From a virus: 26,097 bases of DNA. Under the pieces are notes generated by a model, which did no database searches, was not told the DNA's origin, and saw only the letters and a list, made by a program, of their open reading frames with translations. The translations under genes were made by a program, and so were the position numbers. How positions within the stretch are numbered: position 1 is the stretch's first letter; each line of letters begins with the position of its first letter. Below, piece by piece: positions 6,615-21,208 of the stretch. The stretch covers positions 1 to 26,097 of the IMG/VR virus record IMGVR_UViG_3300030116_002425; one strand, given 5' to 3'.

Positions 6615-7013
6615 TTAATTATCCACTTCCACTGTAAATCCACCAATTTCAACGCTACGGCAAGGTTCAAGTAACGATCTGATAGCAGGTGGTGCTGCTG
6701 TATACTTACGCTCTTCAATTGCAAGCGTAAGCTTTCCATAGTGCCGTGCATCCTCTGGAGCCATTGCCTCCAACACACTGCCTAATTTATCCTGGTCCCA
6801 CACAACTTTTTTAGTAATCTTAGCTTTGAGCTTTTGATTACCTGCAATCATATGTGCGGTACCAAAGTCTTTACCGTCTGCCCGTAAAGCATCACGAGCT
6901 TGGTCATAAAACATGTCTTTGATTTGTTGTTCGATGTCTTTGAGTTCACTCTTGAGCATGTTTATTTGCTCTTTGAGTTCTTCTCGCGCAACGAAAAGTT
7001 CTGTACTGTTCAT
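6615..7013 (-). CDS. Coiled-coil hypothetical protein (132 aa)
   Basis: I do not recognise a named family. The N-terminal 40 residues form a clear coiled coil (REELKEQINMLKSEL... with heptad leucines and isoleucines), followed by a basic region (KLKAKITKKVVW, about 61-72) and a mixed C-terminus. The size, coiled coil and position before a Sak4-like gene recall Gam-like or other nuclease-inhibitor proteins, but I see no diagnostic motif, so this is only a suggestion. Its promoter candidate lies just upstream (7044-7072). The ribosome binding site is poor (AAAG, about nine bases before the ATG). Confidence 0.7.
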   Translation of the reverse strand: MNSTELFVAREELKEQINMLKSELKDIEQQIKDMFYDQARDALRADGKDFGTAHMIAGNQKLKAKITKKVVWDQDKLGSVLEAMAPEDARHYGKLTLAIEERKYTAAPPAIRSLLEPCRSVEIGGFTVEVDN

Positions 7014-7043
7014 AATAATACTTTCTTTAGTTCTAGAATTTAA

Positions 7044-7072
7044 AACTTAGAAAAGTATGGGATCTTTGTCAA
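7044..7072 (-). promoter_or_regulatory. Candidate sigma70-type promoter for the DNA metabolism operon
   Basis: On the minus strand a perfect -35 TTGACA (7067-7072) overlaps the TGA stop of the DUF1064 gene. After 17 bases comes TAAGTT (7044-7049), a poor -10 (3 of 6). Transcription would begin near 7037, about 24 bases before the ATG of the coiled-coil gene. The perfect -35 in one of the few gaps supports it; the weak -10 means it may need an activator or be chance. Confidence 0.35.
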
Positions 7073-7443
7073 CTATTTTTTTTGGATAAATAAATATTAA
7101 TGTTATGAACAGCTTTCATAAGCTTCTTTTTTAGTTTAAATTCAGGGGTTTCCACACCTTTTGCATCTTCTATCACATGTTCCCAAACACCGTCTTTATC
7201 TTCCTTGTCATACTTAAAGTCGGCTATGTATGTGCAGATCTTTTGTCCGTTTACAGAGATTATGAACTTTGGCTGTAGCTCTAAATTCTTTACTCGACCT
7301 GCTTTTTCCAAAGACTTCAGATAAAGATAACGTTGTGATTCCCATTTAGAATCAAACTTTATTCCGTCAACCAGAGTTTTCTTGTTGCCGTACTTGGGTC
7401 TTGACCTTTTTAGTTTGGGATTATATGTTGGTTTCGAGAACAT
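7069..7443 (-). CDS. DUF1064 phage endonuclease
   Basis: Small phage nuclease of the DUF1064 family, a PD-(D/E)XK-like group proposed to act like Holliday junction resolvases. About 124 residues from the ATG at 7443. Family hallmarks: KYGNKKT, then DGIKFDSKWESQRY (with the conserved Glu), LQPKF, YIADFKY (metal-binding Asp) and EDAKG (E/DxK). The frame stays open to a GTG at 7506, but that extension would overlap the opposite-strand ribbon-helix-helix gene, so the ATG at 7443 is preferred although it lacks a clear ribosome binding site. It opens the DNA metabolism module, and resolving branched DNA fits the Sak4, SSB and helicase that follow. Confidence 0.78.
   Translation of the reverse strand: MFSKPTYNPKLKRSRPKYGNKKTLVDGIKFDSKWESQRYLYLKSLEKAGRVKNLELQPKFIISVNGQKICTYIADFKYDKEDKDGVWEHVIEDAKGVETPEFKLKKKLMKAVHNINIYLSKKNS
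7401..7429 (+). promoter_or_regulatory. Candidate promoter for the plus-strand ribbon-helix-helix gene
   Basis: TTGACC (5 of 6) at 7401-7406, 17 bases, then TATGTT (4 of 6) at 7424-7429, all inside the DUF1064 gene on the opposite strand. Predicted start near 7436 leaves an 18-base leader containing GGGAG before the ATG at 7454. This is the right place and direction for the only plus-strand gene, which would otherwise have no source of transcription in this window. Confidence 0.4.
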
Positions 7444-7453
7444 TATGGGAGTT

Positions 7454-7669
7454 ATGCTAGTGCCTAAACCATCAAAATACAAGTCTATAGGTGTGAATGT
7501 AGACACTTATGAAAAGATCGTACAGATCGCAAACAAAGAAAGACGAAATATATCACAGCAATTGTCTTTGCTTGTAGATGAGGAATACAGAAGCCAGGGT
7601 TTACAAAAGACTACACCACCAGTTGCTAGAGCAATGGTCGGGGGAATTTCAGCGGTTATAGAGGACTAA
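7454..7669 (+). CDS. Ribbon-helix-helix DNA-binding protein (Arc/CopG-like)
   Basis: The only plus-strand gene in the window; 71 residues. Residues 10-46 fit a ribbon-helix-helix fold: a short strand KSIGVNVD, helix TYEKIVQIANKER, a turn with RRNIS, then helix QQLSLLVDEEYR. Such proteins dimerise, insert the paired strands into the major groove and act as small repressors. The C-terminal 25 residues are flexible. ATG options are 7445 and 7454; the latter has GGGAG just before it. It ends tail-to-tail with the 1017-residue gene with a 4-base overlap, and its start is divergent from the DUF1064 gene. Lying between the virion and DNA metabolism modules, it is well placed to regulate one of them. 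Targets are unknown. Confidence 0.75.
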   Translation: MLVPKPSKYKSIGVNVDTYEKIVQIANKERRNISQQLSLLVDEEYRSQGLQKTTPPVARAMVGGISAVIED

Positions 7670-10600
7670 AGAAGACCCGCGCTACCAAGACCGCCTAGTA
7701 AACTAGCCGCAACATAAGGATTTGTTTTAGCTCTTTGACGTATGTTTTGTTGTTGTTGAATATAACGCGGATTAATTCTTCTTGTTATTTGCAAATCTTG
7801 CGCTGAGAGTGGAGGCAAAACTTGAGGAACAGGGGTTTTGCTTTGTGGTGGCGGTGTTCCTTTTACCTCCTGTGGGCTTGTTAATAACTGTCCTGCTGTT
7901 TGCCTAGTGGCAACCTGACCTCGATTCAATGCTCCAAGAGTAGCTCCTACTCCTTTTGCAACTCCTGCTGCCCTTTGAGTTAAAGGAACGCCAGAGCCAC
8001 CCACTTGTGCTGCTGACTCATTCAAAGCTTGTGTGAGACTTTGTGCCGCCGCTTGTGGGCTTGTTCTGCCTGCTTTAAGTTCTAACGCTGCTCTCATAAC
8101 AGTTGGATTATTAAACATATAATTCAACACACGAAATCTTGCCGCTTTCGGTAAATTTTTCATTGGATTAGTGAATTGACCAGTTCTAATTGCGTCTGCT
8201 GCAAGTGAACCCGCTCCTCTAGCTCCTGTATCACGCAAGAAAACAAGATCATCTGCCATTTGTCTCATATCTTTTACAGCTTGTTCACCTAATACTCTGT
8301 TAAGCATTTCTGGTTTGTAAGAATCTATTGCATTGCGTAATGAATAAGCCGCTTTCTCATTAATAAATATATCCTCATCTACAGATCCGAGAATATCATT
8401 AACAATTGTTCGCCTTATTGTTTCTTGAGCTTCAGGGCTGTCATCAAAAAATTTAAGTATTCGATTCATTTGAGCACGACTCATGGTACGGTCGGTAATT
8501 GCTGCTGCCGCTTCCTCTGGATCAAGATTTCCAGAGTTTAAACGTTTTAAAATACTAGATTGAGAAGCCTCTTCTAATCCAACTTGCGCATCTCTAACAC
8601 TACGGAGCGTTTGAACTATACCCGCATCTGGATTTTGAGCTAAAATACGTTGTAGTGTTGCATCATCAATTTTTCTAACACCACCGTAAGCTAATGATTT
8701 TGCTAAATTTTGCACATTAGGCCATTCATCTCCAAACAAAAGTTTACCTGTTTTATCTTTGTTCATACGTTTTATTTTTCCATAAAACTGAACACCATTA
8801 AATTTTGTTGGATCAGAAAAGTCTTTATTAGAGTCTAATAAAGCCTCATCAAGATAACGTTTTGCTAAATCTTGACGAACCACTTCACGTTGATCTTTTG
8901 CCGCATTTAATGCAGCTTCTATACGAGTGGGGCTTGCTATAATTTTATCATAATTATTTCCAGCCGCAAGTCTTACATTAACTCCAGGTTCTCCAAGATT
9001 TCTAACAATATTAAGAGTTTCTAATCTATTGAAAAGACGCATTTCTGAGCGATAAGCTTTGTTTGCCTCTTGCAATTTTTTCATCGCATTACGCATTGCA
9101 GTGGAGTTTGCTTTTGAGCCTTTAGCTAAACCTTGATTTATGCCTGTTAATTTTACATCTCCTTTTAGCATAGTATCTACAGTTTCTCTTAACTCAACTA
9201 ATAAACGGCGCGGAGTTGTCGCTCCTATACTTAATGATGGATCAAACAATTTATCTTGTATGTTTTTACGCAATCCTCGCAAACCATTAAAAGTAGTTTT
9301 TCCTACATCTGAACCTTGAGTTGCAAGTTCATTAATAATTCTTCCAACTTCTTGAAACTGTTTTGGCGCTGATGAAGGTGAATTTCCGTATTTTTCAAAA
9401 ATCATATCATCATAACGGGTTTTTATTGCATTAATATCAAATAAAGGAAGTGATCCACCCTTAACTGATCGAGTCCTTCCGTTTATAGTTACATTACCGT
9501 CAATTTTTGCCAATTCATCATCAACACCTTTGTAAAGAGTTTCTGCATTTTTGGCAAACTCATCATAATTATACATCAACACATTAAGAACAGAGTCATC
9601 AATATCTGTTCCTTCTTTTGTTGATTTTGTTAAAATGGAGATTGTTTCATCAATCGCATTCATATGTGCATTTTGAGCATCATCTAACGATTTTTGTAAT
9701 TTTTTTGCTTTCGTAGGAGCCGCATCTGCGATTACTTTTGCAAGATCATCTGAAGTAGCTCCTGCAATTACATTGCCTTGTGCATCCATGATTCCTGCAT
9801 CTTGAAGTAATTTTTGTTTTTTATTTAAAGCAAAAATAATATTATTAATTGCTCTTTTTTCTTTTCCTGAAATAGCTTCTGCAATTTGTGACGCTTTTGA
9901 TATCGCGGCAGGCATACCCGCTGCTTCATAGCTAGGCATACCGCCCTCATCCATAATTCTTAATGCTTGTTCGGCTCCACCTTGACCTAATTGACGTTCA
10001 CTTTGTCCTATAGCTCGTGCGCTTGCATTTGCTACTTTACCCGCACCCCCAATAAGACCTTTAACTACTTTGTATGTTCCCATTGTGGCAAGATCAATTG
10101 TCCCTGCAAGCGCAGCTTCTTTAGCCGCATCTTTTGCAACTTCTAAACCAGTTTGTTTTTGTAAACCTAATAGTTTTTCAATACCTTCTTCAACAAGCTG
10201 ACCACCTGCTGCGCCTGCTGCCGCACCTGCTGCTCCTGTAATAAGACCTGGAGCACCAAGAATACCACCAATTATTGATCCAATTGTCTCTGGGGCTAAT
10301 CCCGCAACATCAGAAATGTCTCTTAAAGTAAAACCCTCTTCTTCAATGACTAGATTTTTGCCGATAGGCTTCATACCCTCTTTAGCTTGCCCTTCAGGAG
10401 TAAGAGCTAACCTACCTTGAGCGTCTTTTGTAAATCCAGATTCTCCTACCCTCCGAAGTAAAAAGTTTTCTTTTTCTTCTGGAGTTTCCATAAAAGAAAG
10501 TTTTGCTCTTAAACCACCTCTGGCTCCTGTTGTGTAATCAAACATTTGTTCATCTTTTCCAGACCCAGATTTTAAAAGATCTTGGAAACTAGGAGCACGT

Positions 10601-10719
10601 TGAAAACCAAAATTATTTCTATTAGTAGATCTTCTTAATTGTCTTAATTCTTCTTGAGGAGACAAATCTGTTTTCTTCCTAGACTCTCTAAGAGCTTGTA
10701 ATTCTTCTTGCGGAGTCAT
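7666..10719 (-). CDS. Large internal virion / DNA ejection-type protein (1017 aa)
   Basis: The largest gene here. No enzymatic domain is visible. The N-terminus carries two copies of a charged helix, PQEELQALRES (3-13) and PQEELRQLRRS (21-31). Residues about 136-175 form a long Gly/Ala-rich hydrophobic stretch (GSIIGGILGAPGLITGAAGA), suited to inserting in a membrane. Most of the rest is predicted alpha-helical and charged, and the last 15 residues are again hydrophobic (AASLLGGLGSAGLL). Large helical proteins with a glycine-zipper-like segment next to other structural genes resemble podovirus internal core or ejection proteins that cross the host envelope during infection. It starts at a TAATG overlap with the 618-residue gene, with no strong ribosome binding site of its own. 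The role is inferred. Confidence 0.65.
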   Translation of the reverse strand: MTPQEELQALRESRKKTDLSPQEELRQLRRSTNRNNFGFQRAPSFQDLLKSGSGKDEQMFDYTTGARGGLRAKLSFMETPEEKENFLLRRVGESGFTKDAQGRLALTPEGQAKEGMKPIGKNLVIEEEGFTLRDISDVAGLAPETIGSIIGGILGAPGLITGAAGAAAGAAGGQLVEEGIEKLLGLQKQTGLEVAKDAAKEAALAGTIDLATMGTYKVVKGLIGGAGKVANASARAIGQSERQLGQGGAEQALRIMDEGGMPSYEAAGMPAAISKASQIAEAISGKEKRAINNIIFALNKKQKLLQDAGIMDAQGNVIAGATSDDLAKVIADAAPTKAKKLQKSLDDAQNAHMNAIDETISILTKSTKEGTDIDDSVLNVLMYNYDEFAKNAETLYKGVDDELAKIDGNVTINGRTRSVKGGSLPLFDINAIKTRYDDMIFEKYGNSPSSAPKQFQEVGRIINELATQGSDVGKTTFNGLRGLRKNIQDKLFDPSLSIGATTPRRLLVELRETVDTMLKGDVKLTGINQGLAKGSKANSTAMRNAMKKLQEANKAYRSEMRLFNRLETLNIVRNLGEPGVNVRLAAGNNYDKIIASPTRIEAALNAAKDQREVVRQDLAKRYLDEALLDSNKDFSDPTKFNGVQFYGKIKRMNKDKTGKLLFGDEWPNVQNLAKSLAYGGVRKIDDATLQRILAQNPDAGIVQTLRSVRDAQVGLEEASQSSILKRLNSGNLDPEEAAAAITDRTMSRAQMNRILKFFDDSPEAQETIRRTIVNDILGSVDEDIFINEKAAYSLRNAIDSYKPEMLNRVLGEQAVKDMRQMADDLVFLRDTGARGAGSLAADAIRTGQFTNPMKNLPKAARFRVLNYMFNNPTVMRAALELKAGRTSPQAAAQSLTQALNESAAQVGGSGVPLTQRAAGVAKGVGATLGALNRGQVATRQTAGQLLTSPQEVKGTPPPQSKTPVPQVLPPLSAQDLQITRRINPRYIQQQQNIRQRAKTNPYVAASLLGGLGSAGLL

Positions 10720-20367: not shown

Positions 20368-21208
20368 CTGTTTTATCCTCTAGCTGTGGAGTATTAGTCA
20401 AAGATGTCCTGTCCATAATATCAAAACCACGACTGTTTGCAAAGTCTGTTGGGCAGTGCGCCCACTTTTCTGCACAAGCCTCTAACCACTGCACTGTGTG
20501 GTGATGCTCTGGTGCTTTGCCTTGTTTAATAATTTCGTTTTCCCATTGCAAATATGAGAAGACTTCTGCCTGTGCTTGCGCTGCATTGATGCCTAGATCA
20601 AAAATGTAGATAAGATTGCCCTCATCTATCTGACCATTACGACTCCTAGCTGCGTTCAATGCTTGCTTCATACAGGTCATAATGTGGTACTTAACTTCTT
20701 CTAACTCGTAGTCTTCTTCGGTAAGCTCGTCCTTACCGATCTTCTTCATCAGGTTGTCATACTGATTGGTAAAGAAGTTTAGCTTTCTTACCGCACCCTC
20801 TACATAGCCACGAGAGCTTGCTGCTTGTGCTTGCTTTTCGTTTATCTTCACCTCAAGCATCTCACGCTCAAGATCGTCTGTCTCAGTCTCAAGCTTACGC
20901 TCTAGCTTTTTGAGCTTTACTTCTTCTTTCTTCATCTTGAAGTAACCTTCTTGTAAAGCTGCCTTAGTCTTTTCAATCTCAGCCAAGCTATGCTTGATAG
21001 AGCGGATAGGAGTAATAGCCGTGACATCGAGCGTCACGCTCATCATTTGGGAATGTGATTTGTAAAAGTTACTAGATGCCTGTGCGATTGCAGGAGCTTT
21101 CTCCTGTATATTTGCCAACATAGATTTGTATTCAGGCTTCGCTTGTGGAAGCTGAATGTTTATATCAGGCGTAGTAAGTGCTACTTCTTGTGTTGTATCT
21201 TTGGGCAT
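20357..21208 (-). CDS. Coiled-coil protein of the tail region (283 aa)
   Basis: No family recognised. From the ATG at 21208, which overlaps the chaperone stop as TAATG, the product has 283 residues. A highly charged coiled coil spans about 74-130 (EVKLKKLERKLETETDDLER). The C-terminal part (about 165-270) is a compact helical domain rich in Trp, His and Cys (LQWENEI, EHHHTVQWLEACAEKW) ending in a flexible acidic tail. It is unlike the surrounding beta-rich fibre proteins. It may be an assembly factor or a host-directed protein expressed late. Confidence 0.65.
   Translation of the reverse strand: MPKDTTQEVALTTPDINIQLPQAKPEYKSMLANIQEKAPAIAQASSNFYKSHSQMMSVTLDVTAITPIRSIKHSLAEIEKTKAALQEGYFKMKKEEVKLKKLERKLETETDDLEREMLEVKINEKQAQAASSRGYVEGAVRKLNFFTNQYDNLMKKIGKDELTEEDYELEEVKYHIMTCMKQALNAARSRNGQIDEGNLIYIFDLGINAAQAQAEVFSYLQWENEIIKQGKAPEHHHTVQWLEACAEKWAHCPTDFANSRGFDIMDRTSLTNTPQLEDKTDGA

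Follow-up and report, generated by a model that had tools for sequence, protein, structure and literature searches.

The window analysed here, that is, the whole 26,097-nt stretch of IMG/VR record IMGVR_UViG_3300030116_002425, carries a plus-strand ORF that stops at position 7669 and encodes a putative ribbon-helix-helix (RHH) protein. The following features lie at and around this ORF:

6615-7013, minus strand: 132-codon gene (PHROG 2480, no function assigned), which heads the next DNA-metabolism genes
7031-7038, no strand assigned: TTCTAGAA, just downstream of the -10 of the 132-codon gene
7044-7072, minus strand: TTGACA-17-TAAGTT, candidate promoter for the 132-codon gene, with conserved TTGAC
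7058-7063, plus strand: candidate operator TGGGAT (minus strand: ATCCCA), within the 132-codon gene promoter, in its spacer
7069-7443, minus strand: DUF1064 / Holliday junction resolvase-like gene (Pfam E 5e-20, PHROG E 2e-34), divergent partner of the RHH gene
7401-7429, plus strand: RHH promoter TTGACC-17-TATGTT (-35 at 7401-7406, -10 at 7424-7429), from conservation and a consensus scan
7402-7460, no strand assigned: block of suppressed synonymous variation spanning both gene starts
7416-7421, plus strand: candidate operator word 1, TGGGAT, in the spacer beside the -10
7446-7450, plus strand: candidate operator word 2 (leader), TGGGA, overlapping the ribosome-binding site GGGAG at 7447-7451
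7460-7669, plus strand: RHH gene, 69 codons from the probable start GTG 7460 (start codon conservation, dN/dS and fold)
7666-10719, minus strand: 1017-codon gene, convergent neighbour of the RHH gene

The RHH gene and the 1017-codon gene overlap tail-to-tail, as the first-pass annotation had reported, the overlap being 4 nt (7666-7669), and the DNA-metabolism genes headed by the 132-codon gene are Sak4-like, helicase and Cas4-type exonuclease genes. The start of the RHH gene had been placed at ATG 7454, giving 71 codons. This codon is not conserved, being ATA or ATT in several clades, whereas all 77 distinct upstream sequences (drawn from 253 loci, many being repeat copies of one contig) have a start codon at 7460, 47 of them ATG and 30 GTG, so that translation probably begins at GTG 7460 and yields 69 codons. 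In the window GGGAG is located 8 nt before this GTG, and in distant clades the protein begins MPNP-x-KYKSVG at the same place. An in-frame alternative at 7445 is ATG, GTG or TTG in the clades compared. The start of the DUF1064 gene is most likely ATG 7443, since the DUF1064 match begins exactly at the equivalent position in 68 of 68 loci; an upstream start at GTG 7506 was discarded, the frame upstream of 7443 being interrupted by a stop codon in some relatives. Taken from 7443 and 7460, the two genes therefore form a divergent pair whose first bases are 17 nt apart. There is seemingly no ribosome-binding site before ATG 7443, and the DUF1064 message is perhaps leaderless. The description of the RHH gene as the lone opposite-strand gene holds for the window, in which a greedy ORF caller found, besides the RHH ORF, 0 nt of ORFs longer than 100 aa on the plus strand and 24,056 nt on the minus strand, but not for longer relatives, which have more opposite-strand ORFs. 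Records G001 (21148-26178) and G002 (31484-34503) each carry a second opposite-strand ORF block, mostly of unknown function and with its own TGGGA promoters.

Relatives of the RHH protein were collected from IMG/VR in a first scan (43 relatives) and a profile scan (70), followed by wider scans yielding 113, 239 and 135 relatives, of which the best 80 of each were kept. All 70 loci from the first scan and the profile scan have a 1017-codon gene homologue on the minus strand beyond the RHH gene, and in 68 of them a DUF1064 gene lies divergently beside the RHH gene; the other two (L016 and L091) end at a contig edge. A reverse scan starting from DUF1064 gave 316 relatives, and among the best 80 of these together with one prokaryote contig, the RHH gene, recognized by its N-terminal motif, was divergent from DUF1064 in 81 of 81 loci, with the two start codons 15-20 nt apart. 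One of these RHH genes (L233) is broken off after 25 residues, and it was the sole miss of an HMM search that found the RHH gene in 39 of 40 DUF1064 loci outside the RHH set. A search for the same opposite-strand gene at this border in related phages, which had been proposed as a check, finds it whether begun from the RHH protein or from DUF1064. The first-pass annotation had also named the absence of a conserved frame in relatives, or a near-neutral ratio of silent to replacement changes, as grounds against the gene. The frame is kept in relatives, and the median dN/dS is 0.125 (highest value 0.351; 44 pairs from 29 representatives, omitting the first 12 codons and excluding pairs with <70% DNA identity, dS = 0 or dS >=3). 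We conclude that the RHH gene is genuine and conserved, and that purifying selection acts on it.

Outside IMG/VR, 84,980 prokaryote genomes were scanned with the protein of the distant-clade locus L217, which gave a single match, on a contig of a Rhodobacteraceae MAG where the phage genes flank it on either side. Three tblastn searches of 50,697 phage records with the RHH protein returned no relative; one row at E 5 was a Latilactobacillus phage gene annotated as transcriptional regulator. In one cultured phage with DUF1064, this gene belongs to a run of genes that all point the same way, and none annotated as RHH stands next to it. In Roseobacter phage CRP-901, to which a virion protein is related, the stretch examined carries neither a DUF1064 nor an RHH label. 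The 1017-codon gene is just 22-31% identical (best segment) to that of the window in some of the loci L002-L016, where the RHH protein is 92-100% identical, and 84% identical in L006. A 1017-codon gene so divergent next to a near-identical RHH gene indicates that the virion module has been exchanged right at the border. Contig IMGVR_UViG_3300030376_000638 (L016, L160) has differing RHH copies on either side of a break, possibly a joining artefact.

The fold of the protein was approached through structure prediction. An AlphaFold model built from 77 sequences (pLDDT 73) has helices at residues 14-26 and 31-45 and a disordered linker; as a monomer it contains no strand, the N-terminal stretch being loose where the strand of a dimer would form. 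This model was preferred to a first one from 14 close sequences, which consisted of a single long helix (pLDDT 57) and was set aside. The best 36 Foldseek rows are nearly all RHH proteins (Arc, MatP, AmrZ, CopG, CdbA, antitoxins), with a best E of 0.3, none at E 0.001, and a probability of up to 0.96, and structural comparison by VIA gave Z values of 5.5 for CopG, 5.3 for Arc and 4.9 for omega. Such Z values are modest alone, and what counts in these model-based comparisons is the uniform list of RHH proteins. The fold searches thus point to a strand-helix-helix core of ~45 residues like that of solved RHH proteins, with the strand unformed in the monomer. Sequence profiles are less telling. 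Among the 77 members, RHH_5 was matched in 4 (best E 0.028), MatP_C in 4 and RHH_7 in 3, with unrelated families scoring equally well or better; in PHROG, the Arc-like PHROG 228 was matched in 2 members (E 0.087) and the best family, PHROG 5118 of unknown function, in 20. Searched singly, the RHH protein matched no Pfam family and merely weak PHROG rows of unknown function, and PDB-sequence profile searches gave nothing below E 0.46. Overall, the modelling supports a ribbon-helix-helix DNA-binding protein. Most members end in a C-terminal tail, GG[IL]S[AS]V[IL]ED, after a linker of varying length and sequence, and L168, L169 and L345 have a different sequence in its place.

The promoter that had been read inside the DUF1064 gene is present, TTGACC, the 17-nt spacer and TAT being found in 77 of 77 distinct upstream sequences. 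It is this conservation that makes it credible and not its consensus score, as a consensus scan of positions 6900-8100 found 3 promoter-like sites against a shuffle mean of 2.2, i.e. not above chance. The -10 hexamer varies beyond TAT (TATACA in 29 sequences, TATGTT in 24, TATCTT and TATGTC in 7 each, TATCGT in 5, TATATT in 3, and TATGGT and TATAAA in 1 each). More than 60% of alphaproteobacterial sigma-70 promoters are without the final T of the -10 (PMC8407463), and the missing last T in RHH promoters fits a weak hint of an alphaproteobacterial host.

Synonymous variation in the DUF1064 gene drops where this promoter lies. Across 26 representatives it is 0.159 over the 13 codons at 7402-7440 and 0.449 over the 81 codons at 7150-7399; the former value is the lowest of 82 runs of the same length, and none of 20,000 random 13-codon sets was as low. 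Dual coding was rejected as the cause of the frozen sites: the third positions of both frames coincide, and constraint on both proteins would therefore leave synonymous changes free. Nor was a clear minus-strand promoter for DUF1064 seen by eye within the element.

Two copies of a short word stand out in the block, 30 bp apart in the window and 30 bp (47 sequences) or 31 bp (30 sequences) apart among the 77. TGGGA occupies both places in 74 of them, with TAGGA at the first place in 2 and at both in 1, so that the repeated word is found at the gene's own promoter in all 77 if the 3 TAGGA variants are counted, word 1 lying within conserved DUF1064 codons and word 2 overlapping the ribosome-binding site, two circumstances that weigh against an operator role. 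Covariation of the two words was considered and dropped, both being altered in one of the three variants. At the other end of the gene, the scan detected no terminator-like site, so that there may be antisense read-through into the 1017-codon gene, which bears on the suggestion of the first-pass annotation that convergent transcription opposes that of the minus strand.

The same word recurs at the promoter of the 132-codon gene. There are 170 loci with both this gene and DUF1064; after leaving out 35 with a gap of at least 120 nt, 64 distinct gap sequences remain. TTGAC is found in all 64, [TC]CCCA in 47 (TCCCA in 43) and no [TC]CCCA in 17, which include the clades L100-L108 and L151-L161/L178. 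The inverted repeat TCCCA-N5-9-TGGGA occurs in 13 of the 64, and noncoding inverted pairs are few elsewhere. In the 35 loci left out (e.g. L002, L021, L043), 365-995 nt are inserted between the two genes. TCTAG follows the -10 in 60 of the 64 gap sequences, and TCTAG or TTCTAGAA also follows the -10 of many early-type promoters in G001, G002, G006, G007, G010, G012 and G013.

The word was then surveyed in 12 records, i.e. the window and eleven hand-picked relatives (477,618 bases); the records are related, so that the word and tandem counts are not independent. Promoter-like sites with TGGGA in the spacer or the first bases of the -10 number 68, 42 of them noncoding, although some of these 42 look like chance (e.g. 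G001 35424, G008 6884). Two permutations of the word that overlap the motif gave 50 (31 noncoding) and 47 (28 noncoding) sites in the same scan, and the 17 non-overlapping permutations 13-42 (1-8 noncoding). A sharper signal came from spacing. Noncoding direct repeats of TGGGA at exactly 10 bp number 17, whereas every other spacing from 5 to 40 bp occurs at most twice, and permuted words gave 8 and 5 repeats at 10 bp for the overlapping two and 0-2 for the other 17. Counting all DNA, there are 21 such tandems against a mean of 0.5 and a maximum of 2 in 20 whole-record shuffles.

The location of the tandems is uneven. When early and virion zones were assigned by hand from the gene map of G002 (noncoding length being similar, 54.1 and 51.2 kb), 16 of the 17 noncoding tandems were nearest to early-zone genes and the remaining one, close to the zone border, to a virion-zone gene; the 4 coding tandems are all nearest to virion-zone genes, 3 of them in one homologous gene. 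By eye, 12 of the 17 lie in TTGA promoters, where the arrangement is TTGACA-N12-TGGGA-TAnnnT-GGGAT or else both words fall in the spacer (2 of the 12 being one site in two near-identical records), and 5 lie outside (G002 29047, G002 31154, G006 1237, G006 54912, G007 27611). Noncoding 10-bp tandems are absent from the window, G003, G008, G009 and G011. Among eleven early-block genes queried, the window and G003 have none, G008 and G009 three and G011 seven, so that 3 of the 10 records having early-block genes are without noncoding tandems, and G011 counts against a universal tandem rule. Through 16 of the 17 tandems the word of the RHH promoter is thus also present at early promoters, with G008, G009 and G011 as the records lacking it there. 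Within the window alone no word enrichment was seen (TATGGGA 2 against 3.2 expected); word pairs number 15 against 3.5 in shuffles for G002 and 5 against 3.2 for G001, with no excess in the window or G003.

Two further sequences were met in the survey. The G008 promoters at 20480 and 30099 share AAAATATTTT, which occurs once more in the noncoding DNA of the 12 records, in G011, and is perhaps another operator in G008, where TGGGA tandems are lacking. A pairing of an altered word with an altered strand in clade L100-L108 was not borne out, AAAATATTTT being missing from its RHH promoter. At G006 1029-1060, G008 34487, G011 2912-2940, G012 1285 and G013 13825, TTGACG-like words are repeated next to a stretch, AATAAAATCAA..TTAG, that is common to these places and may mark a replication origin.

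The analysis shows the gene, its synteny, the selection acting on it, the fold, the conserved promoter, and the common word with its 10-bp tandems. From these we infer, with reasonable though far from full confidence, that the RHH protein controls its own expression and represses promoters of the early and DNA-metabolism genes; its binding to the word, the repression and the timing all belong to this inference. The dimer would be made rightward from its own host-type promoter within the start of the divergent DUF1064 gene and would bind TGGGA words, probably via the N-terminal strand KYKSIGV, with neighbouring copies, spaced by 10 bp or by 30-31 bp, presented on one helix face. Bound to the RHH promoter, it would cover the spacer beside the -10 and the leader and so repress its own gene. 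In the 132-codon gene promoter and the early-zone promoters of the relatives, the spacer and the -10 are where the words are found, and there host RNA polymerase would be blocked. Rising amounts of the protein would thus lower transcription of the early and DNA-metabolism genes, and infection would move on to the virion phase.

The first-pass annotation had foreseen a small RHH autoregulator, and this idea is strengthened by the fold, the invariant synteny and the conserved cis element with its two TGGGA words, even if sequence profiles are weak and autoregulation is deduced from the arrangement. It had also envisaged a switch between late virion genes and DNA metabolism. Here the word at the 132-codon promoter and the early-zone tandems agree with a switch, but one that is likely to act on the early and DNA-metabolism genes and not on those for the virion, because the word is present at the 132-codon promoter and a single one of the 17 noncoding tandems is nearest to a virion-zone gene. 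One could go further and see in the 69-residue protein the master early-off switch of a widespread group of uncultured marine phages, with TGGGA over the -10 of most early promoters, so that virion onset would be set by it, and with the tail as a partner-binding or degradation signal acting as a timer; we regard this extended version as rather doubtful.

Alternatively, the RHH protein could act on its own promoter alone, and perhaps on that of DUF1064, the other TGGGA sites being recognized by some other regulator, of phage or host origin. In favour of this, the words are kept at the own promoter in all 77 distinct sequences, while clades L100-L108 and L151-L161/L178 have no word at the next promoter and G008, G009 and G011 have no tandems. 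Against it, an identical word with helical-phase spacing is found at the own and the other promoters, and no other regulator was linked to TGGGA in this analysis, which makes so narrow a role unlikely in our view. That the bound protein would instead be an activator, sitting in the spacer and aiding RNA polymerase at weak -10s, e.g. those without the final T, would account for the many -10s off consensus (TATACA in 29 of 77) and has a precedent in AvtR, a viral RHH protein described as both stimulating and repressing (PMC5569661). However, these promoters have good -35s (TTGAC), their -10 is itself overlapped by the tandem pair, a position from which bound protein would be expected to block, and the final T is dispensed with in most alphaproteobacterial sigma-70 promoters anyway (PMC8407463), so that we consider activation improbable.

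The words may also belong to the promoters themselves. If TGGGA and the following TCTAG were parts of a phage promoter class that the RHH gene merely uses, TCTAG would be expected where it is found, after the -10 in nearly all gap sequences and in many early promoters. Yet the word shifts among spacer, -10 flank and leader, in both orientations, as an operator would, and the RHH gene's own promoter is without TCTAG at that place; this explanation has, we think, quite a small chance of being correct. Least of all would we expect the protein to be the antitoxin of a toxin-antitoxin pair. Although several structural matches are antitoxins, no co-directional partner, and hence no adjacent co-transcribed toxin gene, was found: the neighbour on one side is convergent, of ~1017 residues and with a homologue in 70 of 70 loci, and DUF1064 on the other side is divergent.

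The gene timing of phages without cultured members is usually unreadable. In the present case, sequence yields a putative regulator together with its candidate word, a rule for the spacing and a set of candidate target promoters, which makes early/late control in a widespread marine phage group testable with one small protein and short DNA pieces. The regulator's promoter is moreover kept inside the coding start of its neighbour, where the synonymous sites of tens of bases are frozen. While this kind of system is known, the protein family and the candidate regulon were not found in the literature searched; that is, no published account of this RHH gene was found in the literature on RHH and early genes of marine phages, on DUF1064 together with RHH, or on TGGGAT-type early promoters of phages.

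Among known regulators, Arc of Salmonella phage P22 shares the phage origin, the RHH fold and the use of two dimers on adjoining half-sites within a promoter, but reads a different word and shows no significant sequence match to the protein described here. Arc acts at the ant promoter, with its operator between the -35 and the -10. CopG and omega, plasmid copy-number regulators, are the closest folds by VIA besides Arc, at low identity to the RHH protein (16-19%); omega reads 7-bp tandem words. SvtR of SIRV1 and AvtR of AFV6 are viral RHH proteins that bind several further sites in the viral genome and, for SvtR, its own promoter, although they are archaeal, the best SvtR target is a virion gene and AvtR can also stimulate (PMC5569661). 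Another archaeal viral protein, F55, has tandem repeats as its binding sites, both at early promoters and at its own (PMC5569661). The virus and its promoters are archaeal, the word is a different one (ATAGATAG) and F55 keeps lysogeny. Nevertheless, judged by its described working, F55 is the closest counterpart of the mechanism proposed here: a small viral RHH protein acting at its own and early promoters through tandem repeats that overlap core promoter parts.
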